Source of the DNA: a virus | IMG/VR virus record: IMGVR_UViG_3300030329_002110 | Location: 1 to 43,381 of that record | DNA: 43,381 nucleotides | Reading direction: 5' to 3' (one strand) | In this document: positions 20,207 through 38,910 of the stretch, in pieces | How positions within the stretch are numbered: the stretch's first letter is position 1 | How the letters are laid out: every line of letters starts with the position of its first letter | The notes under the pieces: generated by a model | The model's database searches: none | What the model saw: only the letters and a program-made list of their open reading frames with translations | Told to the model about the DNA's origin: nothing | Program-made: the position numbers and the translations under genes

Positions 20207-22210
20207 ATGGCGAACATTACTGGTTGGGGTCGAGGCACATGGGGTCAAGGAGCGTGGAACGCTCCTATTCCTGTTGTTGTATCTGGAATTGAGCAAGTTA
20301 CCAATGGAGACTTTGACTCTGATACTACTGGTTGGTCAACTACTTCTAATTCTAGTGCCTCTGTCAGTGATGGTATTGTTACGATTACTGCAAATCAATA
20401 CCACACTTTTAGTCAAAATTTAACTTTAGACGCTGGCAGAAGTTACACAATATCAGTTTTAACAACGGCTAAATCGGGCAATTTTTATGTTGCTATTCAC
20501 GATGGGTCTAGTGTAACAGATTTTACAAATGTGACTGTTGGAACAACTACTCTTACTTTCACGGCAAACAGTGGTACAAATCAACTTAGATTATACCCTT
20601 ATTCATCTGGCACTGGTCACACTTTATCAGTTGATTCAATTTCTGTTAAAGGTGCTGTTGAAACTGAGGGTACAGCTTCTGTAGGAACCGCAACTGTACT
20701 TCCTTCAATTTCAGTTGCAGTAACTGGTGTTGCTGGTACTACTGCTGTTGGTAGTGAATCTGTTTCGGCTGGAGCTACTGTTGTAGAAACTGGCGTTGCT
20801 GGAACCACATCTTTAGGCAGTGAATCTGTTACTGCTGGAGCTACTGTTGTAGAAACTGGACTAGCAGGCACTGGAGCAGTAGGAAATACAGTTGAAACTG
20901 GCACATCAGTTGTTGGTGCTAGTGGTAATCAAGGCTCTGGACAAATCGGTGATGAGGTTACAAGACCTCAAGGTATATTTGGCGTAACTGGAACACAAGG
21001 TTCAACTGCATTAGGAACAGTTGTTGCTGCTCCACAAAGTATTATTAGTGTTACAGGTGTTGCTGGAACTGGTCAAGCAGGCACTATAACTGAAAGTGGA
21101 ACAGCTTTAGTCGCACCAACTGGTGTTGAAGGGACTGGTCAACTTGGTAACGAAGTTGCTTTTTCTAATGTAACAGTTATTGAAACTGGATTGGCTGGAA
21201 CCACTGGATTAGGAAGTGTAAGTGTTTTACCTTCAATCACTATTGCAGAAACTGGATTTGCTGGAACTACTGGACTAGGAACTGTAACTGTTCTGCCTTC
21301 AATCACTATTGCAGAAACTGGATTTGTAGGCACTACATCATTAGGAACTGCAACAGCCTTACCTTCAATAGAATTTGCAGCCACTGGATTTGCAGCCACT
21401 GGTTCAGTTGGTGATGTATTAGCTGCTGGTGGAGCTAAAGTAGTTGAAGATGCTGTAACGGGTAGTGTTAATTTAGGTGACGAAGCCGTAAAAGGTGACG
21501 CTAATTTGTCTGTAACTGGCGTGTCTTCAACTGGAGGCATAGGTAATACGGATACTGGAACTATTACTTTTACCATTACAGTAGCCTCTAAATCATCATA
21601 TGATTCAGGTAGTTCTAATGCGTATTATATAAACGGAGTTGAACGTCCAGTCTTGACATTGATTGAAGGTAAAACTTATAGATTTGATCAAAGTGATTCT
21701 TCAAATGGTTTAGGCGGAGGACACCCTTTTCGTTTTTCCACAACTCCAAATGGGTCACACGCAAGTGGTTCAGAATATACAACTGGAGTAACAACTAATG
21801 GAACACCTGGAAGTGCTGGTGCTTATACAGAAATTACTGTGGCTAGTGACGCTCCTACCTTATATTACTATTGTACCAATCATAGTAATATGGGAAACAC
21901 TGCCTTTACTTCTGATTCGATCTTTAACGTAACAGGTGGCTCAACAATTACTCCAAGTGCTGCTACAAGTACAAGTGCAGTGGGAACAGTTACTGTTCTT
22001 CCGTCTATTGAAGTAAATGTAACAACAGTTGTTGGAACAACGTCTTTGGGCAATGAATCTGTTTTAGCAATCAACAACATCAGTATAACTGGAGTTGAGG
22101 CAACTGGAGCAGTAGGAATTATAAATTTATACGGACTTATTGAAAATAATGTTAGTGTAAGTTATACTGAGGTAACTCCGTCACAGAACGCTAATTATGA
22201 GGCGGCTTAA
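20207..22210 (+). CDS. Repeat-rich tail protein with carbohydrate-binding-like and cupredoxin-like domains
   Basis: 667 residues. Order: a Trp-Gly motif (GWGRGTWGQGAWN, 6-18); a lectin/CBM-like beta-sandwich (about 28-150, VTNGDFDSDTTGW to LSVDSISVKG); about ten degenerate 22-residue repeats (about 153-440, type TGVAGTTxLGSxxVxPS); a cupredoxin-like domain (about 455-575); and two or three further repeats (about 580-640). The cupredoxin segment keeps His506 (GGGHPFRFS) and Cys556-x2-His559-x2-Met562 (YYYCTNHSNMGN), the spacing of the amicyanin copper loop. Probably a host-surface-binding fibre or tail-tip protein. Copper binding and receptor are untested. Confidence 0.78.
   Translation: MANITGWGRGTWGQGAWNAPIPVVVSGIEQVTNGDFDSDTTGWSTTSNSSASVSDGIVTITANQYHTFSQNLTLDAGRSYTISVLTTAKSGNFYVAIHDGSSVTDFTNVTVGTTTLTFTANSGTNQLRLYPYSSGTGHTLSVDSISVKGAVETEGTASVGTATVLPSISVAVTGVAGTTAVGSESVSAGATVVETGVAGTTSLGSESVTAGATVVETGLAGTGAVGNTVETGTSVVGASGNQGSGQIGDEVTRPQGIFGVTGTQGSTALGTVVAAPQSIISVTGVAGTGQAGTITESGTALVAPTGVEGTGQLGNEVAFSNVTVIETGLAGTTGLGSVSVLPSITIAETGFAGTTGLGTVTVLPSITIAETGFVGTTSLGTATALPSIEFAATGFAATGSVGDVLAAGGAKVVEDAVTGSVNLGDEAVKGDANLSVTGVSSTGGIGNTDTGTITFTITVASKSSYDSGSSNAYYINGVERPVLTLIEGKTYRFDQSDSSNGLGGGHPFRFSTTPNGSHASGSEYTTGVTTNGTPGSAGAYTEITVASDAPTLYYYCTNHSNMGNTAFTSDSIFNVTGGSTITPSAATSTSAVGTVTVLPSIEVNVTTVVGTTSLGNESVLAINNISITGVEATGAVGIINLYGLIENNVSVSYTEVTPSQNANYEAA
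20680..21445 (+). repeat. 66-bp tandem repeat array in tail gene
   Basis: The 22-codon unit recurs in register. Exact copies include a 31-base block at 21230-21260 repeated at 21296-21326 and a 26-base block at 20768-20793 repeated at 20834-20859, each 66 bases apart. Other units are diverged, and some differ in length. The array resumes after the cupredoxin-like domain at about 21950-22120. It is coding sequence, not a CRISPR or satellite. Confidence 0.88.
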
Positions 22211-22225: not shown

Positions 22226-23257
22226 ATGGCTAGTACATTTGTAAATAATTTAAGACTTGAGGAAATGGCGACTGGAGAGCAGTCGGGTAACTGGGGTACA
22301 AAAACAAATACAAACTTAGAACTTATAGGTGAGGCACTAGGATTTGGAACAGAAGCCATAACAACAAATGCTAATACTCACACGACAACCATAGCAGATG
22401 GTGCATCTGACGCTGGAAGAGCTTTGTTCTTAAAATATACAGGTGCTTTAGATTCTGATTGCACAATTACAATCGGTCCTAACACTATGAAGAGAGTTCA
22501 CATTATAGAAAACGCTACTACAGATAGTGGCAGTTCAGGTCCTTATAATATTATTATATCACAAGGATCTGGTGCAAACATAACTATAGGTAATGGTGAT
22601 ACAAAAGTTGTTTATCTCGATGGTGCAGGATCTGGTGCAGCCGTTGTGGATGCTTTTGTAGATTTAGACTTATCTGGTGGATCTGTAAATGTTAGCACAG
22701 TTAAAACTAATTCTGGTGATATGACTTTTGATTCTGCTGGAGATATTATTCTTGATGCAGATGGTGCAGATGTTGTGTTTAAAGATGGTGGAACTACAAT
22801 CGCAAAGTTCATAAATTCTTCAAGTGATTTTGTTATAGCTACGGATGTTGATGACAAAGACTTTATAATAAAAGGACAAGATTCAACAAGTGAGATAACT
22901 GCATTGACTATTGATATGTCTGCTGCTGGAGCCGCTACATTTAACAATGATGTAACTGCTTTCTCTGATGAAAGACTGAAAGAAGATATACAACCAATTA
23001 CTAATGGTCTTGAAAAAGTTATGCAACTACAAGGTGTAACTTATAAAAGAAATGATGTCACAAATGCAAAAACTCAAATAGGTGTAATTGCACAACAAGT
23101 TGAGCCTATCTTACCAGAAGTTGTTTTAACTGCTGATGATGAAATGCAAACTAAGTCAGTTGATTACGCTAAGATGACTGCTGTGTTGATAGAGGCAGTC
23201 AAGGAACTAAAACAAGAAATTACACAATTAAAACAACAAATTATTAATGGAGGCTAA
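22226..23257 (+). CDS. Tail fibre with self-cleaving S74 chaperone domain
   Basis: 343 residues. The N-terminus (FVNNLRLEEMATGEQSGNWG) is a common fibre-attachment segment of marine phages; the middle (about 50-240) is beta-helix-like and Gly/Asp-rich. The C-terminal 97 residues form an intramolecular chaperone (peptidase S74): the catalytic dyad Ser247 and Lys252 in FSDERLKEDIQPI, then IGVIAQQVEPILPEVV, and the trimeric coiled-coil end VLIEAVKELKQEITQLKQQI. Such domains drive trimer folding and then release themselves just before the Ser. The released fibre would be about 246 residues. Confidence 0.9.
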   Translation: MASTFVNNLRLEEMATGEQSGNWGTKTNTNLELIGEALGFGTEAITTNANTHTTTIADGASDAGRALFLKYTGALDSDCTITIGPNTMKRVHIIENATTDSGSSGPYNIIISQGSGANITIGNGDTKVVYLDGAGSGAAVVDAFVDLDLSGGSVNVSTVKTNSGDMTFDSAGDIILDADGADVVFKDGGTTIAKFINSSSDFVIATDVDDKDFIIKGQDSTSEITALTIDMSAAGAATFNNDVTAFSDERLKEDIQPITNGLEKVMQLQGVTYKRNDVTNAKTQIGVIAQQVEPILPEVVLTADDEMQTKSVDYAKMTAVLIEAVKELKQEITQLKQQIINGG

Positions 23258-23260
23258 TTA

Positions 23261-24565
23261 GTGGCAATACCAAGCTCTGGACAATCTTTATCTTTATCTG
23301 CTCTTAGAACTGAGTTTGTTGGAGGTTCTAGTGCTATTAGTTTGGGTGACCTTTACAGAGGTGGTACAAACATTAAGAAAAAAGCAGGAGATAATCAAGG
23401 TACTAATCTTGCCGCAAGTGTTGCAACTTCTGGTGCGATAGACGTTAGTGATTATTATGATCAAGCTAAAGGTTTTACTTTTACTTATTCAACAACAGGA
23501 TTAAGCGGGGCATCTGGCACAGACCAAGATGTGTCTACTTTGTTTGGTGATGATTATGATTTAGATTATCCAAAAAATGTTGTCATTCCATCAGCCATAA
23601 CATTAGGAACAAACAATACATCAGAGTTCGCTTTAGAGGTAGATTCAGGTGGTGCTGGTACAATAACTATTACAAACAATGGTACAATTATCGGTGCTGG
23701 TGGTGCTGGAGGTTCGGCTGGATCAGCAGGATCTGCTGGTGCTGGAGGCGATGGTGGAGATGGTGCTGCTGGTGGAGATGCTATAAAAGTAGAAACCGAC
23801 TGCACTATTATTAATAACGGAAGTATTTTCGCTGGTGGCGGTGGTGGTGCTGGAGGAGCTGGAGGTGGTCTTGGTGGCAATCTTGAGCAACAACAACAAA
23901 CAACAGTACAACAAGGACCTAGTTATATACATACTCCAAGTAATGTTACAAGATGGACTTATATCGGTAATCCTTATTATTCACTTTTTATAGGTTTTGG
24001 ACCCCTAGGTGGTTCAGTGCATGGTGCGGCTCCACCTGGTGGAAGTAATGTCACTGGTAATACAGGTACTCCTGGAAGTGCAAGTCAAACTTCATATACC
24101 AAAGGTATTTATACTTATACTAGAGGACAATCTTACGCACTTAATGTTCCTAACCTACCAGAAAATCCTCAGTTTTATTATAATTATTACTATATTAGTG
24201 TAAGTTACCCTCAACAATCACAAAATCAAGTTAGTGGTCACTCTGGTGGTGCTGGTGCAGCAGGTGGGTTAGGCAGAGGATTTAACAATCAACCTGGTGG
24301 CGATTCTGGAGCTTCTGGAGCTTCTGGATCAACTGGCGATGCGGGTAATGGTGGCAACGGAGGTGATGGTGGCGATGGTGGTGGCTATGGTCAAGCTGGA
24401 GCCGCAGGTCAAGCAGGTCAAGCAGGAACAAACTCAACTACCAATGGTGCTGCTGGTGGAAGTGCTGGTAGTGCAGGTGCTGCTGGGTTAGCCGTAGAGA
24501 AAGATGGTCCAATATCATTAACTTTTACAAACAACGGAACTGTAACTGGGACTGTGCAATCATAA
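23261..24565 (+). CDS. Glycine-rich receptor-binding adhesin (polyglycine-helix type), GTG start
   Basis: 434 residues, GTG start preceded by GGAGG with a 7-base spacer. The N-terminus IPSSGQSLSLSALRTEF plus SAISLGDLYRGG is a recurrent marine phage fibre head. Three TNNGTI/NNGSI strand motifs (about 138, 185, 423) flank glycine-rich blocks at 144-172, 191-206 and 327-410 (GGNGGDGGDGGGYGQ). This pattern recalls the polyglycine-II sandwich of phage S16 gp38 adhesins, where variable loops bind receptors. The Tyr/Gln/Asn-rich insert at about 208-326 (PQFYYNYYYISVSY) would be the specificity region. No collagen Gly-Pro pattern is seen. Confidence 0.75.
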   Translation: MAIPSSGQSLSLSALRTEFVGGSSAISLGDLYRGGTNIKKKAGDNQGTNLAASVATSGAIDVSDYYDQAKGFTFTYSTTGLSGASGTDQDVSTLFGDDYDLDYPKNVVIPSAITLGTNNTSEFALEVDSGGAGTITITNNGTIIGAGGAGGSAGSAGSAGAGGDGGDGAAGGDAIKVETDCTIINNGSIFAGGGGGAGGAGGGLGGNLEQQQQTTVQQGPSYIHTPSNVTRWTYIGNPYYSLFIGFGPLGGSVHGAAPPGGSNVTGNTGTPGSASQTSYTKGIYTYTRGQSYALNVPNLPENPQFYYNYYYISVSYPQQSQNQVSGHSGGAGAAGGLGRGFNNQPGGDSGASGASGSTGDAGNGGNGGDGGDGGGYGQAGAAGQAGQAGTNSTTNGAAGGSAGSAGAAGLAVEKDGPISLTFTNNGTVTGTVQS

Positions 24566-24574
24566 GGAGCAAAT

Positions 24575-24955
24575 ATGGCAAATACATACACATGGTCAAT
24601 AACAAAATTATACACTAAAAACATAACTGTTGACGGCACAACTTATAATGATGTTGTCAAAAGAGTAGAAGGTAGGTTAACAGCGACAAGCGGATCCGAT
24701 TCAAGTATTAGTACAGTTCATGGTTATGATATTGATTTAAGTAATCCTTCTGACTGGTCTAGTTTTACTGCATACAATTCTTTATCAGAATCAAAAGTAC
24801 AAGCATGGGCTGAAGCAAAATTAACTGCTGACACAATCGCTCAAGTTAAGCATCACTTAGACGCAGGTATTGCTTTTGAAGAGGCTGTAAGCGGAGCTAC
24901 TGCTAAAGGATCAGGCACTGGCGATGATTTTGTTGCAAGTTTTCCTTGGAGTTAA
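24575..24955 (+). CDS. Small tail-associated protein (MANTYTW family)
   Basis: 126 residues. The opening MANTYTWSITKLYTKNITVD and the ALSESKVQAW-like helix (SLSESKVQAWAEAKL) match an uncharacterised family (DUF7936-like, unverified) usually encoded just after fibre genes in marine phages. AAGGAGC lies 5 bases before the ATG. Likely a fibre accessory or assembly factor. Confidence 0.7.
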   Translation: MANTYTWSITKLYTKNITVDGTTYNDVVKRVEGRLTATSGSDSSISTVHGYDIDLSNPSDWSSFTAYNSLSESKVQAWAEAKLTADTIAQVKHHLDAGIAFEEAVSGATAKGSGTGDDFVASFPWS

Positions 24956-24962
24956 TGAGATA

Positions 24963-24993
24963 ATATGCTACAACTCTTATAAAGGTAGCATAT
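24963..24993. promoter_or_regulatory. 9-bp inverted repeat over start of oxygenase cassette
   Basis: ATATGCTAC (24963-24971) and GTAGCATAT (24985-24993) are perfect inverted copies with a 13-base loop; the right arm covers the AT of the start codon at 24992. TATAAA (24978-24983) in the loop may be a -10 with a poor -35 (ATGAGA, 17-base spacer). As RNA it could hide the start codon and AAAGG ribosome site; as DNA it could be an operator. Confidence 0.6.
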
Positions 24994-25516
24994 GAAAAAT
25001 TCTGTATTTGTTCTTCCAGAACATCTTTTGTATTATTTAAGATTACATAGTAGAGTAGTAAATCAAACAAATCGTAAAGAGCAGGGTGATGATAATATTT
25101 CAATATACTCAGACCCTGTCTTTGAAACTTTATTACTGCATTTACATCCTACTTTACAAGAATTAACTAAACAAAAATTAATTCCAACTTACTCTTATTT
25201 TAGAACTTATAAAAAAGGTAATAATTTAAAAAATCATACTGATAGAGAATCTTGTGAATACAGTACTACTATTTTACTAGATTGCTCTGAGCCAAATACT
25301 TCTTGGGAGATTTTTGTAGATAAGAAACCATTTGCGTTAAAATTAGGTCAAGGTGTGATTTATAAAGGCATTGAACAAGAACATTACAGAAATGCTTGTC
25401 CTATGGAATATAGTTCTCATGTGTTTTTGCATTATGTAGATGCTAATGGACCTTATAAAGATTTTGCATTTGATAAAAGACCAAATACACATTTAGTTAG
25501 TCAAGGCACAAGATGA
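24992..25516 (+). CDS. 2OG-Fe(II) oxygenase-like protein, first of three
   Basis: 174 residues. The family hydroxylates proteins, nucleic acids or small molecules using Fe(II) and 2-oxoglutarate. A double-stranded beta-helix pattern is visible: YSYFRTYKKGNNLKNHTDRE with His82-x-Asp84, a TTILLD strand, GQGVIYKGIEQEHYRN with distal His131, and SSHVFLHYVDANGPY. The usual 2OG-binding Arg about ten residues after the distal His is not obvious (Ser/His there), so cosubstrate use may differ. AAAGG precedes the start by 6 bases. It overlaps the next oxygenase by ATGA. Confidence 0.78.
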   Translation: MKNSVFVLPEHLLYYLRLHSRVVNQTNRKEQGDDNISIYSDPVFETLLLHLHPTLQELTKQKLIPTYSYFRTYKKGNNLKNHTDRESCEYSTTILLDCSEPNTSWEIFVDKKPFALKLGQGVIYKGIEQEHYRNACPMEYSSHVFLHYVDANGPYKDFAFDKRPNTHLVSQGTR

Positions 25517-26073
25517 AAAGAAATATAGTTATAGCAAAAAAAGCAATCTCGGCTGATTTGTGTAATACAATTATTGAAAGAACCAAAAAAGATTTTCAAG
25601 TCGCAACTACTGCTAATGGCAATGTCCCAGACGTGCGTAAAAGTCAAGTTAGTTGGTTACAAGGATCAGTCAAACACTACGATATATACCAACCAATAAT
25701 TAATTTAATTAAAAAAATTAACAATGAAGTATATAACTTTGAGTTATTTGATCCAGAGCCTTTTCAAATAACTCAATACGATGAAAAAAATCAAGGTTTT
25801 TATAAACCTCACATGGATGGTAATTACGATCATGTGCCACATGATCATCCAGTTAGAAAACTTTCTCTTTCGATTCAACTTACACCACCAAATTATTACG
25901 AAGGAGGTGTTTTTGAATTTCCAGACGATAAAGAAAAATTTGTAGTTGAAGATTCTATGGATCAAGGGACTGCTATTTTTTTTCCTTCTTATATGAAACA
26001 TGGCGTACAGCCAGTAACAAAAGGCACCAGATATAGTTTAGTTTGTTGGGTTATCGGACCTAACTTTAAATAG
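25513..26073 (+). CDS. 2OG-Fe(II) oxygenase, prolyl-4-hydroxylase/PKHD-like
   Basis: 186 residues with a complete, canonical active site: GFYKPHMDGNYD gives His100-x-Asp102, LSLSIQLTPPNYYEGGVFEF is the central jelly-roll strand pair, FFPSYMKHGVQPVTKGTRYS gives distal His163 and 2OG-binding Arg173. Size and pattern fit the P4Hc/PKHD-hydroxylase group common in marine phages. Substrate is unknown: a virion protein, host protein or metabolite are all possible. Overlaps the previous gene by ATGA. Confidence 0.9.
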   Translation: MKRNIVIAKKAISADLCNTIIERTKKDFQVATTANGNVPDVRKSQVSWLQGSVKHYDIYQPIINLIKKINNEVYNFELFDPEPFQITQYDEKNQGFYKPHMDGNYDHVPHDHPVRKLSLSIQLTPPNYYEGGVFEFPDDKEKFVVEDSMDQGTAIFFPSYMKHGVQPVTKGTRYSLVCWVIGPNFK

Positions 26074-26084
26074 GAGAGAAAAAA

Positions 26085-26723
26085 ATGTATTATATTGTTT
26101 ATGATAATTTTTTACCACAAAATGAATTTGGAATTTTAAAAGAATATCTTTTAAATGGATTTCCTTGGCAATTTAGTAGAAGAATAAATAGCCATGATGA
26201 AAAAAATGACGATTGTTATTTTGCTTCTACAGTATTTCACTCTCATCGCCCTCCACGAGAGCAATGGCAACAAGGTGTAAATTTAGATCCCTTTTTTTTC
26301 ATAACTTCAAAACTTCATATAGAAGGCTTTCAAAGAATAAAAGCTAATTTGTATCTTCCAAGCAGAGGCAAAGAAGTCTATCATCATGCTAAACACAGAG
26401 ATGGTGTGTTTAAACATCAAGGAGCCTTGTTTTATCTTACAAATTGTGATGCTCCGACAACAATGGATGATGGCTATGAGGTTCAATCAGTTGAAAATAG
26501 GCTTTTACTTTTTGATGCAACCTCTCCTCATTCAAGCTCATCTCCCACAAATTCTTCTCATAGAGTTACGATAAATTTTAATTATTGGGGAGCAGGAGTT
26601 AGAATGGAATGGCGACATAATATGCCAAACCCAAATCCTATTATATCTAAAAACATGGAAGTTTTAGAAAAAAGTCATTTTTTACCCATTGCTAACCAGG
26701 CAATGACTGAATGGGGTATTTGA
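26085..26723 (+). CDS. 2OG-Fe(II) oxygenase-like protein, third of three
   Basis: 212 residues with AGGAGAG ribosome site. The facial triad appears as His104-x-Asp106 (HHAKHRDGVF) and distal His149 (FDATSPHSSS), with Arg160 (SSHRVTINFNYWG) eleven residues on as the 2OG ligand. RIKANLYLPSRG precedes the site as the first jelly-roll strand. It differs clearly in sequence from its two neighbours, so the cassette is not a simple tandem duplication. Substrate unknown. Confidence 0.85.
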   Translation: MYYIVYDNFLPQNEFGILKEYLLNGFPWQFSRRINSHDEKNDDCYFASTVFHSHRPPREQWQQGVNLDPFFFITSKLHIEGFQRIKANLYLPSRGKEVYHHAKHRDGVFKHQGALFYLTNCDAPTTMDDGYEVQSVENRLLLFDATSPHSSSSPTNSSHRVTINFNYWGAGVRMEWRHNMPNPNPIISKNMEVLEKSHFLPIANQAMTEWGI

Positions 26724-26733
26724 TTTCTCATTC

Positions 26734-26762
26734 TTGCCAATTATCAAACATAATGATAATAT
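26734..26762 (+). promoter_or_regulatory. Possible promoter restarting the tail operon
   Basis: TTGCCA (26734-26739), a 17-base spacer and TAATAT (26757-26762). The ATG at 26768 is five bases after the -10 and lacks a ribosome site, so a leaderless message is again suggested. The spacer contains an inverted repeat, ATTATCA-N7-TGATAAT (26740-26760). Low complexity and the weak -10 limit confidence. Confidence 0.45.
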
Positions 26763-26767
26763 AAGCT

Positions 26768-27334
26768 ATGCCTATTACTTCTTTAAAATTTAGACCAGGT
26801 ATCAACAAGGAAACAACGTCTTACTCCAACAAAGGTGGCTGGAACGATTGTGATTTAATTAGGTTTCGTTTTGGGTTCCCAGAAAAACTTGGTGGATGGG
26901 AAAAATATTCAACAAATACTTTTCTTGGCACATCACGATCTCTCCATGCTTGGGCAAATCTTGAGGGTAATAAGTATTTAGGAGTTGGGACAGAGATAAA
27001 ATTTTACATTGAGGAGTCAGAAGCCTTTAAAGATATAACACCTTTAAGAAGAAAGGTGCGAGATGGTAAGGTTATATTTGATATTAATGGAAACACAGTT
27101 GCTTTTGATGTGACTGGTGTAGCAGGAACCACGGGTCTTGGAACAGTTGCAATTAACGCACAATCAAACGATACATTAGCTCCAGCTTTCCCAACTGGTG
27201 TCAGTGCAACTGGTTCAGTTGGTACTGTAACATTTAATTTAGAGAATCCTGCAATGGTAGCATCAGTAGGAGATGTTGAAGTTCCAACAACTAATGGGAA
27301 TGTAACTGTAACCGATTTTAGGAATGAAGGTTAA
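26768..27334 (+). CDS. P22 gp10-like tail/DNA-stabilisation protein, N-terminal part
   Basis: 188 residues. The start, ITSLKFRPGINKETTSYSNK then GGWNDCDLIRFRFGFPEKLG and GTSRSLHAWANLEGNKYLGV, is the N-terminus of the large gp10-like tail protein of marine podoviruses, normally one long gene. Here, after KDITPLRR (about residue 97), the sequence changes into repeat units TGVAGTTGLGTVAI and TGVSATGSVGTVTF like those in the 20207 tail gene, then stops. The following ORF carries the remainder. The TAATG overlap suggests both halves are made in register and may assemble together. Confidence 0.78.
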   Translation: MPITSLKFRPGINKETTSYSNKGGWNDCDLIRFRFGFPEKLGGWEKYSTNTFLGTSRSLHAWANLEGNKYLGVGTEIKFYIEESEAFKDITPLRRKVRDGKVIFDINGNTVAFDVTGVAGTTGLGTVAINAQSNDTLAPAFPTGVSATGSVGTVTFNLENPAMVASVGDVEVPTTNGNVTVTDFRNEG

Positions 27335-29385
27335 TGGCACTAACTTTTATAACTGCAACTGATAGCACAACTGCAACTGTAAATGATGAGTCTCATGGTG
27401 CGTTAGTTGGAGATTTTGTTACATTTGCAAATGCCGATACAAGTAACACGACTTTAAATGCACAATTAAACAAAGAGTTTGAAATACAAAGTGTCCCTAC
27501 AAGAAATACTTACACAATAACTTTAGAGTCAAATGCTGCTGCCGCACTGTCTAGTGCAGGTTCAGCCAATGCAGACTATCAATTAAACATAGGTATTAAT
27601 ACAGTTGTGCCAGGTAGTGGTTGGGGTGCAGGACCTTGGAATGGTGAATTAAATACAACAACTTTAGAAACAACTTTAGCGGAAGAAGTAGAGAAAGATG
27701 AAACAGCAATAGATGTTGCGTCCGCTACTGGAATTGCAATTAATGATGTCATTCAAGTCAGAGGAGAGCTTATGCTTGTAACTAATGTAAGCAGTAATAC
27801 TTTGACTGTCACAAGAGGTCATGGAGTTACAACTCAAGTCAATGATGAGGCAGGTGTTGGAACTCCTGCAACTATTACACCTAATACAGTTCGTTTAGCT
27901 ATAGGTAATGCTAGTGCAAGTGATGATTATGTCACTTTAATTAATGGCAGTGATTTAGCGTCAAACACTTCAGCTACAACAGTAACTGTTGATTCAACAG
28001 CATCATTTGAATCAAGTGGTTTTTTAAAAATAGAAGATGAAATAATACAATATACAGGCAAAACAAGCACAACTTTTACTGGTTTAATTAGAGGTAGTGC
28101 GGGTACAACAGCTGCAACTCATGCCGATAATGTTGCAGTTTTTGAGGCTAGTGGTGGAATAGGCATAGAGGCAACTGAGACAGCAGGCACGGGTGGTACT
28201 TTACGTTTATGGTCACAAGATAATTTTGGTGAAGATTTAATATTTAATGAACGAGATGGTGGTGTTTTTTATTGGGACAAAACATTGGGGGTCACTTCAA
28301 GAGCTCAAAATTTAATAGAACTGTCTGACCAAGCACCAATAAAATCAAGAAAAGTTATAGTGTCTGAAAGAGATCGTCATGTCATTTGTTTTGGCGCAAA
28401 TCCAATAGGGCAAACAGAACAAGACAGATTGTTAATTAGATTTAGCTCACAAGAAAACCCTTTTTTATGGACACCTGCTGCAACGAACACGGCAGGTGAT
28501 TTAAGAGTTGGTTCTGGGTCAGAAATCATTACAGCGGTAAAAACAAGAAGAGAGATGATTGTTTTGACAGATACATCTGTGTTTAGTATGCAATTCATTG
28601 GAGCACCTTTTACATTTGGTATTAATCAACTTGCAAGTAACATAACTGTTCGTGGATTTAACAGTGCAGTTGCCGTAGGTGATGCAGTATTTTGGATGGG
28701 GTATGATCGTTTTTACGTTTATGATGGTCGTGTCCAAGTTATACCTTGTTCTGTAAGAGATCATGTGTTTAAAGATTTTAATGAAACACAAACTGATAAA
28801 ATATATGCAGGTGTAAACTCAGCTTTTGGAGAGGTGTTTTGGTTCTATCCATCACAAACAAATGCTCTTTCAAATAATGGAACTGGTGAAAATGACAAAT
28901 ATGTTGTTTATAATTACGATCAAAAGATATGGTACGTTGGTAGCCTTGCAAGAAGTTCTTGGATAGACAGAGGGGTTTATCAATATCCAATGGCAACTGA
29001 TTCCAATCTTGTATACAATCACGAAAAAGGCAATGACAATGACGGCACAGCATTTACGTCTTTTATTGAATCAAGTCCAATAGACATACAAGATGGTGAT
29101 CAATTTGTCTTTTTAAGACGCATGATACCAGATATTAGCTTTGATAACAGTGATGCTAATTTAAGTAACGATAATAAACAAACTGTGTTTTCTTTGAAAG
29201 CACAACGTAGTCCAGGTGGTGGATTTATTAAAACATCCACGAATACTGTATCATCAACCACGGAACTTAATCATTTAAGGTTGCGTGGAAGATCATTTGG
29301 TCTTAGAGTAGAAAGCACAACTCAAGGTGTAAACTGGAGACTTGGTACACCAAGAGTAGATTTAAGAGCGGATGGAGATAGATGA
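27334..29385 (+). CDS. P22 gp10-like tail/DNA-stabilisation protein, C-terminal part
   Basis: 683 residues. It opens with a strand-rich segment (STTATVNDESHGALVGDFVT) that in recalled homologues follows directly on the N-terminal part. A WGAGPWN motif occurs near 99-105. An insert (about 113-290) contains two related beta domains ending TRGHGV and IRGSAGTTAATHADNVAVF. The core resumes with GTLRLWSQDNFGEDLIFNER, VSERDRHVICFGANPIGQ, LLIRFSSQENPFLWTP and MIVLTDTSVFSMQFIGAPFT, typical of the gp10-like tail hub, ending LRLRGRSFGLRVESTTQGVN. A stop at 27325 closes the frame upstream of the ATG. Confidence 0.85.
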   Translation: MALTFITATDSTTATVNDESHGALVGDFVTFANADTSNTTLNAQLNKEFEIQSVPTRNTYTITLESNAAAALSSAGSANADYQLNIGINTVVPGSGWGAGPWNGELNTTTLETTLAEEVEKDETAIDVASATGIAINDVIQVRGELMLVTNVSSNTLTVTRGHGVTTQVNDEAGVGTPATITPNTVRLAIGNASASDDYVTLINGSDLASNTSATTVTVDSTASFESSGFLKIEDEIIQYTGKTSTTFTGLIRGSAGTTAATHADNVAVFEASGGIGIEATETAGTGGTLRLWSQDNFGEDLIFNERDGGVFYWDKTLGVTSRAQNLIELSDQAPIKSRKVIVSERDRHVICFGANPIGQTEQDRLLIRFSSQENPFLWTPAATNTAGDLRVGSGSEIITAVKTRREMIVLTDTSVFSMQFIGAPFTFGINQLASNITVRGFNSAVAVGDAVFWMGYDRFYVYDGRVQVIPCSVRDHVFKDFNETQTDKIYAGVNSAFGEVFWFYPSQTNALSNNGTGENDKYVVYNYDQKIWYVGSLARSSWIDRGVYQYPMATDSNLVYNHEKGNDNDGTAFTSFIESSPIDIQDGDQFVFLRRMIPDISFDNSDANLSNDNKQTVFSLKAQRSPGGGFIKTSTNTVSSTTELNHLRLRGRSFGLRVESTTQGVNWRLGTPRVDLRADGDR

Positions 29386-31317: not shown

Positions 31318-33011
31318 TGAGCGTATTTAATAGACCTATGTTTAGAATACCTGGTATGGGTAACAACCAACCTGGTGGTATCATGGCTAGTGGACCTAAT
31401 ATAATCAGAGCTAGTGTTCCAGGTAATGTTAGTAATCGCAATCAAATTACCTCTAACTTTACTATTCCTGCTAATTTATATGGAGGACAAACAAAAAAGA
31501 CAGTAGATCGAGGAGCGGGTGCAGGTGGTGTTGATACATCAGGTGAAAAAACTTTAGAAGAAAAAAAGAAAGAAAGTCTTTTAGAAAAATTTAAAAGAGA
31601 CGCACAGAAAAATTTAAACATTAGAACAGGTTCTTTAATGGTTGATGATCCTAATCCAGTAACAGGTTTTATGTCTCAACAAACGGATACCACTGATGAA
31701 GTAGGTGGAGACGTAGATACTGAGGAGTCTTTTTCTGGTGGGGATATTTCTTTAAAAGACGCTCCCTTATCAGACGAGGGAACTGCTAATGCAGGCATAG
31801 GAGATAATACACAAGAATCTGATGTAAATATTTTAAAAGGTTTTCAAAGTAATCAAAAACAATTATCTGACAAAGTACAAGCAGCGATTACAAATGTGGC
31901 GGCTGGTGTTGCAGATGCAAACGCTATAAAGATTGGTGGTAAAACATTAAGTGAAAATGCAGATGCACTGTATGCTAAAATGAGCGAAGAAGGTAAAGAG
32001 CCTACTCTTGCAGATATACAAGACGATGCTATACAATTATTAGGGTTTGATCCTAAAGAACTTCAAGGTGAGTTTGAAGAGGATCGAAAAGCATCTATCT
32101 TTTTGAACATGATGAAAGCTGGTCTTGCGATAGCAGCTGGTGAAAGTCCTAATGCTTTAACAAACGTAGCAAAAGGTTTTGCTGTGGGGTTACAAGGTTA
32201 CGGACAAGATGTAGATAAACTTACCACTCGATTACGAGAAGATCAAAGAGAAGCTAGATCGACTATGTATAATTTGTTAAAAGATAAAAAATCAGAAGAG
32301 ATTGCTAAAAGAGCTTTAGAGATACAAAAAATGAATGGCATCGTAAATCTACAAAGAACTCTTGTGGGTGATAAAAAAGATGATGCGATTCAACAATTTA
32401 ATCAACAAATGGCTGGTTACAAATGGAACTTAGATTTATTGTCCACTGCTGCTGACTTACAATTTAAAGAAAAGTCACTTGCGGTAACAAAAGATAATGC
32501 CGACAAAGTGTTTAAAGCTGCTCTTATAAAAGCAGAACCAGATGTTATTAAGATTTTAAAAAGAATGGGACACATTGGTGAGGACGGAACTCCTACTGAT
32601 ACAGGTAACGAGTTTCTAAAGAAATACCTTGATGAAGTTACCAAAGGCACTAGCACTCTGAAAGACAGTGAGTTTAATGTGAATAGAAGTATTATTGCAA
32701 GAGATGGTGTCATACCTAATACTTATATTAAAAAACCAGCGAATTATAATGACTTAACTAAAAGTCAAAAAGAATCATTTGGAGTTGCAGGTGTTGGTCT
32801 CGATGAGAAACTAACAAAAATTACTGGTCAACCTATACAACAGTTCAACGAACAAGTGAAGTTTATAAGATCAATGAAAAGTACAATTCCTAACTTAACT
32901 ATAAGCATACAAGATCTACCGAATGAGGTTCTTAGATACATAAACAAAAAAACTAAAGGTGTAAAACTTGTTGATACGTTACAACAACAAGGAATACTGA
33001 GTGGTAACTAA
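31317..33011 (+). CDS. Internal virion protein, helical
   Basis: 564 residues. Unstructured Asn/Gly/Pro N-terminus, Lys/Glu-rich linker (about 78-100), then a long helical body (about 165-430) with a hydrophobic patch NMMKAGLAIAAGESPNALTN and a QGYGQDVDKLTTRLREDQRE coiled-coil. A globular C-terminal part starts near KRMGHIGEDG. It lies between two ejection-type genes and is coupled to both (TAATGA, TAATG), supporting an internal-core role. No enzyme motif seen. Confidence 0.75.
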   Translation: MSVFNRPMFRIPGMGNNQPGGIMASGPNIIRASVPGNVSNRNQITSNFTIPANLYGGQTKKTVDRGAGAGGVDTSGEKTLEEKKKESLLEKFKRDAQKNLNIRTGSLMVDDPNPVTGFMSQQTDTTDEVGGDVDTEESFSGGDISLKDAPLSDEGTANAGIGDNTQESDVNILKGFQSNQKQLSDKVQAAITNVAAGVADANAIKIGGKTLSENADALYAKMSEEGKEPTLADIQDDAIQLLGFDPKELQGEFEEDRKASIFLNMMKAGLAIAAGESPNALTNVAKGFAVGLQGYGQDVDKLTTRLREDQREARSTMYNLLKDKKSEEIAKRALEIQKMNGIVNLQRTLVGDKKDDAIQQFNQQMAGYKWNLDLLSTAADLQFKEKSLAVTKDNADKVFKAALIKAEPDVIKILKRMGHIGEDGTPTDTGNEFLKKYLDEVTKGTSTLKDSEFNVNRSIIARDGVIPNTYIKKPANYNDLTKSQKESFGVAGVGLDEKLTKITGQPIQQFNEQVKFIRSMKSTIPNLTISIQDLPNEVLRYINKKTKGVKLVDTLQQQGILSGN

Positions 33012-36000
33012 TGCCGAACTATATAGTAGATGGTAAAAGCTATTTCTTCGCAAATGAAATTAGTCAAGATGAAGCAGAAGAGATTGTAAAAAAATATTTT
33101 GGAAATGATAATCAAGCCTTGGCAGAAGAGGGCGAACCAGAATTTAGTGATTATCAAGATCCACAAGATGAAGGTGCTTTACAAGAAATAGGCGAGGGTT
33201 TTATTTCTGGTGCTATTGGTATACCACAAGGTATAGCAGAAACTATTTCAAGTGTTATTGATCTTGGTGCAGGCACAGATTATACGAGTGCTATAACTCA
33301 ATCATTTAATAATTTTAGAAATAGACACGGCATAGATCCAGCAGGTGCCGCTGGTAAAATTACAGAAGGATTAGTTCAGTTTGGTGTGCCAGGCATTGGT
33401 GCCGCTATGGCAGTTTCTAAGTTCAGTAAACTTGGCAGAATGGCAAGAGGCACAGATAAGATGAGAGCCGATAGAGGTTCTCTAAAGACAATGAAGATTA
33501 CAAAACAGCCTTTAGATCCAAAACCGTTAACTCGTAGCCAAAAATTTGGATTAGCTGTTCATCAAATCGCGGCGGCTGGTGCGGCAGATGCAGTTGTGGC
33601 TACAGATGGAACGCAGACTCTTGGTGATTTTTTTGAGGGTGGATACGGTCCTTTTTTTGCTACAAAAGATGTTCTAGGTTTTGAGGGTAGAGAAAGAGCC
33701 GCCGCTAGAATATATAACAAAGTATTAGCTCATGGTCTTACTGGCTCTATTATGGCTGGAACTTTACCTCCAGTGATTGGTGCTGGAATTAATTTTTCTG
33801 CAAAAATAGGTGCAGCCACATCAAGAGAGGTTGGTCTTGCCGTCCCAGGTGCAGCGATAGGTGCTGCCGTTGGAGCGTTTGATGAAGCGGCACAAGGAAA
33901 AGAATTAAAAGATTTTGATTTTGGAAAGATTGGAACCAGTGCGGCATATGGTGCAGGACTTGGTGCTGGTGCTGGTGTTGGATCACGAGTCTTAAGAGGT
34001 GTATCTCAAAAGGCTGGAGAAGCGATTGTAAAACAAGAGGACAAGTACATAAGAAGAGAGTTCGCTGAGCCAGGTGTAATCAACACATTACAAAGAGCAG
34101 TTGGGATAACTTTGTCAGCTTTTAGATCAAGAGGATTTTTACCAGAACCTGTAGCAAGAGTTAAGTCTCTAGTAAATCCAGCCATCGAAGGTGACATAAA
34201 AATAGCAGAAAAAGCGTTAAAAGAAGTAGATAAAAAAATAGACGAAGTTTTAAAAGGCACTACTGAAGAGTTTGCAGATTATAGAAAACTACCAGATATA
34301 ACAAAACAAAAATTAATTAACAATTTTATGGATGTTCTTGAAGGAGCTGACATAAGCACTCTTCGAATACCACAAGCGTTATACGATCAATATGTAAAAG
34401 CTAAAGAGATTATTGATGATTTATCTAGAAGAGTCATGGAAACTGGTGCAGCCAAAAGTTTACCAGAGACATCTGTTTCTGGTATAATGTCTAGAGACGA
34501 ATTTAGAAATCAAGTCATAGAAAATATAAACAAAGGCGGATACTTATCTAGAAACTACCAGATATTTAACGATAATAATTTTAAACTTTCTAGGAAGATG
34601 AGAGAAGAGTTAGTTAAACAAATCGTTGATGGTAGAGGTGTAGATATAAAACATGTTCAAAAGTTTTTAAAAGATGAACCAGAAAGTTTAAGATTTGATA
34701 ATGAATTTGTTGATAGATTTAGAGAAGGATTAAGAACAAGAGATCCAGCTAGAGCTAAACTCAGTGCGGCACAAGCTGAAAGATATATAGATAATGTTAC
34801 AAACCACTATCAAAACTTGAAAAACTCTACAATTAAAGGTAATTCGATAGCTTCTTTTGATGTTCCAGTTGTAAGAATGAATCCAGCTGTTTTAAATAAA
34901 TCAAAAGTAGACAATGAAATACTTAGAACAATATTAGGTGAAGTAAGAAATCCAAAAGAGGCGTACATGCACACCGTTGCAGAGCTATCTAATTTTATTT
35001 CAGCAGACGCTTTTTACTCTAGCTTTAAACAATTCGTAGACGATGCGATTGCTAAGACAGGTCCTGATGAAATTCCTTTGTATATCGACACAAATAAATT
35101 GATCGCTTCTAAACTCAGTGAGATAAACGCAGCTAGAGCACAACAAAATTTACCACTTGTATCGAGATTAAGTGAATTGGAAAGATTTGATCCTGCGGCA
35201 ACAAAAAAAATCTTAAACGAAATAAGACAAGATCTCAACTCAAGAGGTGGAAACATGGCGTATTCTATCTTAGGACGTAACGGTGATTTAGATCCAGGTA
35301 CTTTTTCTGCGAATAGTGTGTTTGGTGAAATGTATGGATACGCTATTCCTAAACCCATGTACGAAGCATTGACCAATGTCATCAACGAAAGAACAAGTGT
35401 ATTTGGAGACATATTCAGAGCTATCTATTATCCAATGATAAAATTAAAAGGTATCTCTCAGTATGCTAAAACTATTTTATCACCGATCACGCAAGTTAGA
35501 AACGTCACATCTGCCTCTTTGTTTGCACTAGCAAATGGTAATGTTGGTAAAAACGCTAGTTTGTTTGAGTCTGTTGATATAGTTCTTAGAGATTTAATTG
35601 ATAAAGAACTCACAATAAAAGGTGGTGGCACGATTAAAAAAGCCACAAGAGATCGTTTTGATTTTTCTTTAAATGATGAAGTTCTAGACTTTTTAGTAGA
35701 TCTTCAAAGAAGAGGTGTGATTGGTAGTTCGGCACAACTTAGAGAGATACAAGCAAACTTAAGACAGAACTTAGGTTACAAGGGTGTAAATGATCCAACA
35801 GAGGTGGCTGCTCAAAGAGCACCTCAAGGTTCGGAATTAGACGATGTTAGCGTTGTATCTGATTTTGAAATAGCAAGAGGTGCTGCAAGAAACAGAAATG
35901 TAGAAGACTCGTTGAACAGACAAGGCGAAAGATTAGAATTTCCAAAAGATCCTACTGGATTAAAAGGTATGGGTAAAACTGTATTGAAGGGATCTATGAA

Positions 36001-37807
36001 TTTAGGTAAGCGTTTTCTTGATAAATCAGAGGGTTTGTATAAAGGTGGTGACGACATTTGGAAAATATATAGCTATGCTTTTGAACTACAGAAGTTAAGA
36101 AATGCCAAGGCTAAAATAGGAACTGACTTCGCGGACAACGCTTCATTAAGAAGACAACAGTTAATAGAATTTGGTAAACACATAGGCAAAAGAAAAGGTG
36201 AAGGCATCGATGAAGCCATGAGAAGAACTGCCGCCGACACAGTTCGTAACACAGTTCCGAACTATGAACTTGTGCCAGAGTTTATCAAAGGTTTAAGAGG
36301 CATACCTCTTGGAAACTTTATAGCGTTCCCAGCAGAAATTTTAAGAACTGGTTTTAATGTTTTAGATGTAGCAGCCAAAGAATTAGAAAGTCCTATACAA
36401 TCAATTAGAGAAATAGGAATGAAAAGATTGATGGGTGGCATAGCTGCTTTTAGCATAGTTGGGCCTGGACTTCAAAAGTTGGCACAGACATTGACCGATA
36501 CAACTGACGAAGAGATATCAGCTGCAAATAGACTTGCAGCAAGTTGGCAGAGAAACTCTTTGTTGATACCAGTAGGCAGAGATGATAATGATAACTTTGA
36601 GTTTATTGATTTTAGTCATACCAATCCATATGATTTATTGTCTAGAGGGTATAGAACCGTTTTAAATTCTTATAAAGAAGCAGATGCACAGAGTGCAGAT
36701 TTTAAAGGTAAAGTTACGAGAGTCATGTTTGACAGTTTGAGTGAATACATGGTTCCTTTTTTAGATTACTCGATGGTTTTTTCTGCACTTCAAGATTCTT
36801 TACCTACAGCAATGGGTGGTCGTGGAGGCAGAACAAGATCTGGTGCAAAAGTATACAGACCTCAAGATTCAAGACCCGTGGCATTTGAAAAGTCTATGTT
36901 GCATATGTTCAATACAATATTACCAGGTGCTATACCCGTGAGAATACCAGTCGGTGCAGACACTGGTGCGGCTGCTTACCTTTTTGGGTCAGGCGATTTT
37001 CAACCTGTTAAAGCTATAGAAAAATCTAGATTTTTAAGAGGTGTGTTTGGTCCAGACGGTGAACCAGAGCCTACCACTGGTAAGACTTATAAACAAGGAG
37101 CAGAATTATTTAGAGCATTTACTGGTTTAAATAGTCAAACTCTAGATCTCCCTAGACTTTTAGAATTTAAATCACAAGAATTTAAACAGAAAAGATCTGG
37201 CACTGCTACACTATTCAACGAAGTTTTAAGAATTGAAGACGCTTCTCCAGAACAAATCATAGAAGCATACAAAAGAGCAGATGACGCTAGACTCAAAGTA
37301 TTTAGAGAAATGGCTGTATCTGTGGACGATTTAGAAACTTTAGGATTGGGTGTAGGAGAAATTAGAAAAATAATGAAAGATGCTCAGTTAGGTAAAGAAG
37401 AAATTAATTCTATTCTTAACGACATTTACATCCCTTTCAAACCAAGCCGAGAAAAATTAATAGATGCTCAAAACAAAAAGGGTCTTTACATTCCGTTTGG
37501 AGAACTAAATATAATGAGGTCTATGAGAAGAGGGGACTCTTTGAGAAAAGAAGAGGAACCAGAAACAGATCCAGTCAGTAATTTATTTGGCATTACTCCT
37601 AATCAAACTCCTACAAACCTTCCAAATTTTGGTGGAGCACCCACAAATGTGGCAGAAGCTGAACCACAACAATCAGAGCCTTTCTTTGGTAATGTGCAGA
37701 CTGCAAGTGTTCAACCAAGTGCTGGAGTTAGAACAACTCCTTCTTTTCTTGGAAGTAACCCAGAAGAAATTTTGAAAAATTTAGATATAGCTAGGAGAAC
37801 TGGATGA
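33011..37807 (+). CDS. Giant internal/ejection protein, polyvalent-type
   Basis: 1598 residues, complete. N-terminus MPNYIVDGKSYFFANEISQD is a small conserved entry domain. Gly/Ala-rich amphipathic stretches follow (about 55-140 and 240-330, including GAAIGAAVGAFDEAAQGKE), then a long helical body. A conserved block near ISQYAKTILSPITQVRNVTS (about 815-835) is typical of marine phage large internal proteins. The C-terminus ends PSFLGSNPEEILKNLDIARR. No lytic transglycosylase motif was identified, unlike T7 gp16. Probably ejected with DNA. Overlaps the endolysin start by ATGA. Confidence 0.78.
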   Translation: MPNYIVDGKSYFFANEISQDEAEEIVKKYFGNDNQALAEEGEPEFSDYQDPQDEGALQEIGEGFISGAIGIPQGIAETISSVIDLGAGTDYTSAITQSFNNFRNRHGIDPAGAAGKITEGLVQFGVPGIGAAMAVSKFSKLGRMARGTDKMRADRGSLKTMKITKQPLDPKPLTRSQKFGLAVHQIAAAGAADAVVATDGTQTLGDFFEGGYGPFFATKDVLGFEGRERAAARIYNKVLAHGLTGSIMAGTLPPVIGAGINFSAKIGAATSREVGLAVPGAAIGAAVGAFDEAAQGKELKDFDFGKIGTSAAYGAGLGAGAGVGSRVLRGVSQKAGEAIVKQEDKYIRREFAEPGVINTLQRAVGITLSAFRSRGFLPEPVARVKSLVNPAIEGDIKIAEKALKEVDKKIDEVLKGTTEEFADYRKLPDITKQKLINNFMDVLEGADISTLRIPQALYDQYVKAKEIIDDLSRRVMETGAAKSLPETSVSGIMSRDEFRNQVIENINKGGYLSRNYQIFNDNNFKLSRKMREELVKQIVDGRGVDIKHVQKFLKDEPESLRFDNEFVDRFREGLRTRDPARAKLSAAQAERYIDNVTNHYQNLKNSTIKGNSIASFDVPVVRMNPAVLNKSKVDNEILRTILGEVRNPKEAYMHTVAELSNFISADAFYSSFKQFVDDAIAKTGPDEIPLYIDTNKLIASKLSEINAARAQQNLPLVSRLSELERFDPAATKKILNEIRQDLNSRGGNMAYSILGRNGDLDPGTFSANSVFGEMYGYAIPKPMYEALTNVINERTSVFGDIFRAIYYPMIKLKGISQYAKTILSPITQVRNVTSASLFALANGNVGKNASLFESVDIVLRDLIDKELTIKGGGTIKKATRDRFDFSLNDEVLDFLVDLQRRGVIGSSAQLREIQANLRQNLGYKGVNDPTEVAAQRAPQGSELDDVSVVSDFEIARGAARNRNVEDSLNRQGERLEFPKDPTGLKGMGKTVLKGSMNLGKRFLDKSEGLYKGGDDIWKIYSYAFELQKLRNAKAKIGTDFADNASLRRQQLIEFGKHIGKRKGEGIDEAMRRTAADTVRNTVPNYELVPEFIKGLRGIPLGNFIAFPAEILRTGFNVLDVAAKELESPIQSIREIGMKRLMGGIAAFSIVGPGLQKLAQTLTDTTDEEISAANRLAASWQRNSLLIPVGRDDNDNFEFIDFSHTNPYDLLSRGYRTVLNSYKEADAQSADFKGKVTRVMFDSLSEYMVPFLDYSMVFSALQDSLPTAMGGRGGRTRSGAKVYRPQDSRPVAFEKSMLHMFNTILPGAIPVRIPVGADTGAAAYLFGSGDFQPVKAIEKSRFLRGVFGPDGEPEPTTGKTYKQGAELFRAFTGLNSQTLDLPRLLEFKSQEFKQKRSGTATLFNEVLRIEDASPEQIIEAYKRADDARLKVFREMAVSVDDLETLGLGVGEIRKIMKDAQLGKEEINSILNDIYIPFKPSREKLIDAQNKKGLYIPFGELNIMRSMRRGDSLRKEEEPETDPVSNLFGITPNQTPTNLPNFGGAPTNVAEAEPQQSEPFFGNVQTASVQPSAGVRTTPSFLGSNPEEILKNLDIARRTG

Positions 37808-38268: not shown

Positions 38269-38910
38269 ATGGCTACGTTAGTTGTGAACCTACCCTCAAT
38301 AGATGTATGGGTACGAAAAGAATATTTAAGAGATGGCGAAGACGGACATGGTGAGTTTGTCAAAGGCATTTGGGTTACTGCGAAATCTATTCCAAGTCGA
38401 GCTTTCTATTTTGAAACTTACCTTCCAGACTATGGTGCTCTTTATGATAAACTACCTATTAGTGCTTTTACTGTTAAACCACAAACCCCGACTCCAGATA
38501 TGGATCTTTATAATCTCCAGTTTTGGAATTGCATGGACTATGGCGTGGTGGCAATCAGTAAACAATTTATAGGCTCGATGGACTTCGAAGTCTATACAAG
38601 AGATCATGGTATCCTCAAAGGATCGTATGTCTGCACTCTTGATAATTATCACGAGAACATAGACAATATTGATTATTCAACAAGTGAGAAACCAGCAGAG
38701 CATAAGTCACACAATTTATTAGAGTTAGAGAACGGACAGTTCTGTTTGTATCCAAACAACAGAATGAGAGTATACGACAATTCGCTCACACCAGACGAAC
38801 CATTACAACCAGATTTCAAAGTTAGTACAGAAATATATCAAGTAGAGAATGGACAAAAGTTTAGACTCGGAGATACAGATGAATATTTTTGGAAAGCAAA
38901 GGATGAATGA
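38269..38910 (+). CDS. Conserved marine phage protein of unknown function
   Basis: 213 residues, no recognised domain. Conserved-looking segments are VNLPSIDVWVRKEYLRDGED, HGEFVKGIWVTAKSIPSRAF and ETYLPDYGALYDKLPISAF, which I recall in marine phage genomes without a known role. It is beta-rich, acidic and Tyr/Asp-rich at the C-terminus. It starts three bases after the endolysin. No strong clue to function. Confidence 0.75.
   Translation: MATLVVNLPSIDVWVRKEYLRDGEDGHGEFVKGIWVTAKSIPSRAFYFETYLPDYGALYDKLPISAFTVKPQTPTPDMDLYNLQFWNCMDYGVVAISKQFIGSMDFEVYTRDHGILKGSYVCTLDNYHENIDNIDYSTSEKPAEHKSHNLLELENGQFCLYPNNRMRVYDNSLTPDEPLQPDFKVSTEIYQVENGQKFRLGDTDEYFWKAKDE

Follow-up and report, generated by a model that had tools for sequence, protein, structure and literature searches.

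A cassette of three consecutive genes, ox1, ox2 and ox3, each encoding a different putative 2OG-Fe(II) oxygenase, was found directly behind a glycine-rich fibre gene and its DUF7936 neighbour in a marine phage genome, and the cassette genes are inherited with the Gly-rich fibre as one unit. The function that we favour for this unit, and hold to be rather probable, is fibre maturation, in which ox1-3 would act before assembly by hydroxylating the Gly-rich adhesin or the DUF7936 protein. The window, that is, the whole stretch of DNA analysed here, comprises 43,381 bp, corresponds to an IMG/VR virus record and has a podovirus-like gene layout. The features used in the argument are given below; the unit lies in a slot bordered by fibre genes on the left and virion structural genes on the right.

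5132-7525, portal (phrog_1216)
20207-22210, fibre protein with many VxGxxGTxxLGxxxV-type repeats
22226-23257, plus strand, fibre with a C-terminal Peptidase_S74 intramolecular chaperone (PF13884, E 3.7e-20), left border of the slot
23261-24565, plus strand, Gly-rich fibre/adhesin-like protein of 434 aa, the candidate substrate (phrog_10745, 6e-23; phrog_11439 tail fibre, 8e-9)
24575-24955, plus strand, DUF7936 protein of 126 aa (PF25590, E 1.2e-11)
24963-24993, plus strand, hairpin upstream of ox1, with perfect 9-bp arms and a 13-nt loop
24992-25516, plus strand, ox1, 174 aa, predicted 2OG-Fe(II) oxygenase fold (PHROG 2954, 1e-40; AF2 model; Foldseek)
25513-26073, plus strand, ox2, 186 aa, 2OG-FeII_Oxy_3 (PF13640, E 9.2e-15; phrog_61, 1e-31)
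26085-26723, plus strand, ox3, 212 aa, predicted 2OG-Fe(II) oxygenase fold (phrog_274, 8e-35; AF2 model; Foldseek)
26768-27334, plus strand, 'stub', virion structural protein at the right border of the slot (phrog_3287, 7e-11)
27334-29385, plus strand, 'struct', virion structural protein at the right border of the slot (phrog_3287, 1.8e-57)
33011-37807, internal virion protein with endolysin-type similarity

Genes for an endolysin, a DNA polymerase and a helicase are also present in the window, and a protein of phrog_3704, a family labelled as ferredoxin, is encoded at 38269-38910 (E 4e-107), immediately following the endolysin gene. Variants of the VxGxxGTxxLGxxxV-repeat fibre protein were present in most of the related loci. 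Within the cassette, the stop codon of ox1 and the start codon of ox2 share a 4-bp ATGA overlap, and ox2 and ox3 are separated by 11 bp. The same close packing, by ATGA overlap or with near-abutting genes, was observed in most relatives, and this recurrent tight spacing fits a translationally coupled operon. All three genes are under purifying selection, with dN/dS of 0.13-0.21 against close relatives.

The initial annotation of this region had recognised the three genes by an HxD...H iron triad in each. Such a triad arose by chance in 22-36% of shuffled ox1-3 sequences, so the motif alone is weak evidence, and the family and fold matches carry the weight. For ox2, the Pfam family match makes the assignment as a 2OG-Fe(II) oxygenase clear: PF13640 scored 55.8 bits against a curated cut-off of 27, and the triad H100/D102/H163 together with the 2OG-binding Arg173 was invariant in 22 of 22 aligned sequences. 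The PF13640 sub-family labels obtained from iterative searches (ox2, Oxy3b, M60 and others) overlap, and the layout names used here for these genes are approximate. Zero Pfam families matched ox1 at E up to 0.1, ox3 matched PF13640 below threshold (0.004), and searches of PDB sequences with ox1 and ox3, singly and as profiles, returned zero relatives. The AlphaFold (AF2) models of both proteins were prolyl-hydroxylase-type jelly rolls predicted with confidence (pLDDT 93.5 for ox1 and 91.8 for ox3). Through its model, ox1 matched the uncharacterised 2rg4 (Z 16.6, rmsd 2.4 Å over 146 residues) and the HIF prolyl hydroxylase PHD2 (Z about 15), and Foldseek placed it with 2OG oxygenases at 4.1e-7, with 501 matches at E <= 0.001. 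The ox3 model matched 6n1f, a Burkholderia 2OG oxygenase (Z 14.9), and PHD2 (Z 14.0), and Foldseek gave 1.3e-6 to prolyl hydroxylases. The 2OG-oxygenase fold of ox1 and ox3 is thus established by prediction, and Fe(II)/2OG-dependent catalysis by ox1-3 is the activity that we infer from it and from the family match.

The ox1 triad H82/D84/H131 was invariant in 92 aligned sequences of 31-91% identity, and the ox3 triad H104/D106/H149 with Arg160 was invariant in 33 sequences and at least 90% conserved in 72. Thus, the triads named earlier in three consecutive genes and the 2OG-binding Arg noticed in ox2 and ox3 were confirmed as invariant or nearly so among relatives. The earlier view that the three genes are not a simple duplication also stood, since they belong to three separate, non-orthologous families, which rules out ox1-3 as simple duplicates of one oxygenase. 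In ox1, the usual site of the 2OG Arg in the last strand is without Arg, and Ser141 replaces Arg383 of PHD2 in a hand alignment; the earlier remark that ox1 lacks an obvious 2OG Arg was right. R71, R85, R133 and H147 of ox1 were invariant in the 92 sequences, and one of these residues may hold the 2OG C5 carboxylate instead.

The names given to two of these families in PHROG, 'ferrochelatase' for that of ox1 (PHROG 2954) and 'DNA endonuclease V' for that of ox3 (PHROG 274), both look wrong. If ox1 were a true ferrochelatase, it would be a heme enzyme giving iron or heme to the adjacent oxygenases, as the annotation of PHROG 2954 and PHROG 3531 and the published reading of pelagiphages (PMC9599517, PMC11561400) would have it. 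The pelagiphage 'ferrochelatase', which is of the same family as ox1, has been described as always adjoining a 2OG oxygenase (PMC9599517), and phrog2954 'ferrochelatase', again the ox1 family, is enriched in seasonal viruses and was reported as a marker of them (PMC11561400). The confident jelly-roll model argues against a heme enzyme, as its fold differs from that of a chelatase along the entire length; the listed fold matches of ox1 are all 2OG-type oxygenases, with no chelatase fold among the matches listed. The HxD...H triad invariant in 92 ox1 relatives and the lack of a Pfam match, including PF00762, at E up to 0.1 point the same way. The assignment of ox1 as ferrochelatase was rejected on these grounds, and a heme enzyme at this position is hardly credible.

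The endonuclease name of phrog_274 would agree with a role of the cassette in nucleic acid modification or repair, in which DNA or RNA bases are hydroxylated in an AlkB- or TET-like manner and the position of the genes is incidental. For the 2OG genes that cyanophages carry near uvsX/Y/W, a function in repair has been suggested, as quoted in PMC9146016. The structures matched by ox1 and ox3 are mainly enzymes that hydroxylate proteins or peptides (PHD2, P4H) or act on small molecules, entries of the AlkB and TET type (ABH8, NgTET1) come only lower in the list and for ox1, and the slot is without any DNA gene; this makes action on nucleic acids very unlikely. The assignment of ox3 as endonuclease V was rejected on both sequence and fold, and ox3 showed no endonuclease match in Pfam, NCBIfam or PDB sequences.

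In PHROG 3531, another family named 'ferrochelatase', the N-terminal half corresponds to ox1 and the C-terminal half to ox2, and this split pointed to fused proteins. Among the fetched loci, ox1-ox2 fusions were found at six (L070, L072, L077, L093, L108 and L109), and the C-terminal half of the L109 fusion matches PF13640 at 8e-17. These fusions suggest that ox1 and ox2 probably act as a pair, which lends plausibility to the earlier idea that ox1 may need a partner. In L168 (3227-4297) and L175 (1051-2127), ox1 carries an N-terminal extension of ~210 aa that gave no match to the oxygenase profiles used. Another family name deserves caution as well: PHROG 1644 (DUF6445; for example L221 gp46 and gp52) is labelled 'minor coat protein', yet it is an array gene in these phages with an H...D/H pattern and an oxygenase-like look, and the label may be wrong.

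The cassette was also thought to be headed by a palindrome and followed by a promoter-like site, and only the first of these signals held. The palindrome is real, with arms at 24963-24971 and 24985-24993, and its 3' arm, as RNA, covers the stretch just before the ox1 start and enters the start codon. It is kept with G-U changes in the close relatives L005, L007 and L141, and other relatives have different hairpins over the ribosome site or start codon of ox1. In L035, a consensus-like sigma70 promoter of the TTGACA-17-TATAAT type occupies the same gap instead of a hairpin. The hairpin could be a translational control element of ox1, and it is plausible that the cassette is controlled at its head. 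A promoter-like site does occur at 26734, but 26 such matches were counted in the surrounding 7.5 kb against 26.0 expected by chance, and at this chance-level frequency it was rejected as an end signal of the cassette.

The linkage of these genes was monitored from two sides. When viral contigs were searched with ox2 alone, 50 loci were obtained; ox1 lay upstream in all 50, and ox3 lay downstream wherever the contig extended that far. The order in these loci was fibA, S74 fibre, Gly-rich fibre, DUF7936, ox1, ox2, ox3 and structural genes, and the order ox1-ox2-ox3 was constant across a wide range of identity. Because the ox2 query is biased, the search was repeated with the downstream structural protein as query, and counts were made for the 63 loci whose slot is complete from the S74 fibre to the structural genes. 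The Gly-rich fibre, DUF7936, ox1, ox2 and ox3 were all present in 22 of the 63 slots, whereas 36 had none of the five cassette genes and no oxygenase, with other genes in their place, and 5 had other oxygenases; neither the Gly-rich fibre nor DUF7936 was found in 41. Most of the 36 oxygenase-free slots contain a protein of ~850 aa (DUF7483 in L143) and one of ~190 aa, and this pair resembles another kind of adhesin accompanied by an accessory gene. Scored per slot, a Gly-rich ORF and any oxygenase occurred together in 23, were both absent in 36, and an oxygenase without a Gly-rich ORF was seen in 4, with no slot having a Gly-rich ORF only (Fisher 1.9e-13, uncorrected for kinship).

A single phage lineage accounts for most of the 63 loci. 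When the presence of the cassette was mapped onto a tree of the structural protein, about 11 changes of state were counted, of which at least 3 fall on supported branches. Only 3 independent pairs could be drawn on such branches; all point in the expected direction, without reaching significance. Tree-corrected co-occurrence of the cassette genes is hence suggestive only, and the linkage of fibre and oxygenases is strong by pattern and under-tested by kinship. The three genes travel together, and independent occurrence without linkage was not observed in these searches; the all-or-none pattern of the slot supports the view of the initial annotation that they form a dedicated cassette linked with the adhesin genes.

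The same counts bear on the possibility that the slot behind the fibre genes simply gathers foreign genes and that the oxygenases are metabolic cargo without action on the fibre. The contents of the slot are frequently exchanged, a QueC-like ATPase and a Cys/Met PLP enzyme occur in some arrays, the regions of Syn9, HTVC008M and Mosig include tryptophan halogenase, heme oxygenase and PcyA, and phage 2OG genes are treated as metabolic in the literature (PMC9602691, PMC9146016, PMC4164917). However, free cargo should sometimes be absent or pair with the other type of adhesin, and in the 63 slots there was no Gly-rich fibre without oxygenases and no oxygenase in any slot with the ~850-aa adhesin. 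The order ox1-ox2-ox3, fixed over a broad identity range, also speaks against free cargo, which we consider unlikely.

The slot comparison also bears on the substrate. The S74 fibre is retained whether or not the slot contains the cassette, and the stub and struct proteins are found in every slot type; as these proteins persist without oxygenases, they are less likely substrates. In complete slots, the Gly-rich and DUF7936 proteins were always accompanied by oxygenases. The Gly-rich family has ~23% Gly, and conservation along its length (39 sequences) is 0.78, 0.34 and 0.77, with a hypervariable middle at residues 222-318; conserved arms around such a middle are the pattern expected of a receptor-binding tip. 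The DUF7936 protein, an obligate neighbour of the Gly-rich fibre, is a candidate accessory or assembly factor or a second substrate.

Linkage to a receptor-binding gene would also fit enzymes that modify the host surface or receptor, acting on envelope proteins or polysaccharide, for example in superinfection exclusion, with the common receptor as their tie to the fibre. A glycosyltransferase lies a few genes on in the corresponding region of Pelagibacter phage HTVC023P. The position of the enzymes inside the virion structural block, with stub and struct next to them and not among early host-takeover genes, makes this quite improbable, and no obvious secretion signal was seen at their N-termini in a non-systematic look.

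Fibre maturation remains the reading that we prefer. In it, ox1-ox2-ox3 would move as one unit with the tip-variable Gly-rich fibre and its DUF7936 neighbour and be expressed together with the late virion genes. Before assembly, the enzymes would add hydroxyl groups to side chains of the Gly-rich adhesin or of its DUF7936 neighbour, and hydroxylation would alter the folding, stability or receptor binding of the fibre. Which protein is modified, at which residue, and how this affects infection are points that we infer. The 4 slots with oxygenases and no Gly-rich ORF count against this reading, as do the distant loci described below that lack a nearby Gly-rich ORF and the ox1 genes that stand apart from other oxygenases in S-RIM32 and in bacteria.

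The window has the minimal set of three oxygenases, and larger arrays were observed in relatives. Some have a DUF6445 gene inserted between ox1 and ox2, some have Oxy_5, Oxy_3, PHROG 2696 or second PHROG 274 genes 3' of ox3, and the run in L048 comprises seven oxygenase-type genes. A QueC-like ATP-PPase and a Cys/Met-metabolism PLP enzyme were noticed between oxygenases (L034:7244-7942, L039:5590-6735, L189-L196). There were at least 597 confirmed matches, and the distant ox1 loci were drawn from the best 80 of these. In this sample, 64 of the 77 ox1 loci outside the clade lie in runs of two or more oxygenases, and at 5 of the other 13 ox1 is fused to ox2. A Gly-rich ORF was present within five genes upstream at 32 of the 54 testable distant loci of the same sample and absent from that distance at 22; the share of background 5-gene windows with such an ORF is 7%. 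Furthermore, a conserved protein of ~250 aa, weakly DUF6065-like (E 0.1), lies between fibre or chaperone genes and oxygenases in other lineages (L066:4084-4869, L078:4629-5363, L114:5515-6255) and could be a cassette enzyme.

Among named phages, ox1 adjoins two 2OG genes amid structural and fibre genes in HTVC033P and HTVC023P, and the HTVC033P array stands behind annotated tail-fibre genes. In Mosig, a 2OG gene, ox1, an ox3-type gene and three further 2OG genes directly follow the tail-fibre genes; the P-RSM4 array is in the region behind a fiber gene, and Syn9 and HTVC008M have long oxygenase arrays. Tryptophan halogenase, or heme oxygenase with PcyA, was seen in or beside the arrays of L221 (Syn9), L220 (Mosig) and L224 (HTVC008M). 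The ox1 gene of S-RIM32 is located away from other oxygenases, among small early-type genes. In bacterial chromosomes, ox1-family genes are solitary, for example in Lysobacter beside mutS, and so the family is not fibre-specific everywhere. The chromosomal Lysobacter relatives are L265, L279 and L288, and the L265 gene is flanked by katG- and mutS-like genes. A wider proposal, which we put forward tentatively and which could well prove too broad, is that a modular line of 3-7 non-orthologous 2OG oxygenases, including the 'ferrochelatase', matures the Gly-rich fibre and is swapped with it, the combination of enzymes being part of host-range evolution.

Few unexplained genes are as common in marine phages as those for 2OG oxygenases, which are usually assigned to host metabolism. 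Their occurrence in these phages and their co-location with a 'ferrochelatase' are already known. Judged against the open-access literature, three points seem to be new: the identity of the 'ferrochelatase' as a 2OG oxygenase, the union of the set with a tip-variable Gly-rich fibre within one exchange slot, and the presence of arrays of these oxygenase families in unrelated phages, often near fibre genes. A search of that literature for tail-fibre hydroxylation by phage enzymes gave nothing relevant, and we know of no report of a phage hydroxylating its own fibres. Should ox1 prove to be a 2OG oxygenase and the array to belong with the fibre, these genes would shift from host metabolism to virion maturation. 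The same phage backbone occurs naturally with and without the cassette, so an old question becomes directly testable.

The best structural matches of ox1 and ox3 are enzymes such as HIF PHD2/EGLN, the P4H of bacteria and Chlorella viruses and the PiuC/PKHD type, with which they share the double-stranded beta-helix and HxD...H; the phage proteins differ from prolyl-hydroxylase-type enzymes in that identity is 9-18%, ox1 is without the last-strand Arg, and three different enzymes stand in one phage operon. ox2 and phage members of phrog_61 have been described as EGLN-like (PMC12774648). The HTVC023P-type pelagiphages (Wittmers et al. 2022, PMC9599517) resemble the window in having an ox1-family gene beside a 2OG oxygenase and several non-orthologous 2OG genes per genome. 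In those phages a heme function was assigned to the ox1 family and a role in host metabolism to the pair, whereas here ox1 itself is a predicted oxygenase and the group is linked to the slot of a Gly-rich fibre. Arrays of ox1-, ox3-, DUF6445- and Oxy_3/Oxy_5-type genes are likewise found in T4-like cyanophages and pelagimyophages (Syn9, P-RSM4, S-SCSM1, HTVC008M and Mosig), with 24 2OG-oxygenase genes in S-SCSM1, and those of Mosig and P-RSM4 are downstream of fibre genes as in the window. These are, however, large myophages whose arrays are mixed with halogenase, heme oxygenase and other genes, and their 2OG genes were published as metabolic genes and not as a fibre cassette. The exchange slot itself is like the adhesin with cognate chaperone of the Alteromonas schitovirus A5 (PMC10579305), where a host-recognition block by the fibre genes is swapped between phages; blocks of the A5 type carry a chaperone, and the block described here also carries three or more oxygenases.
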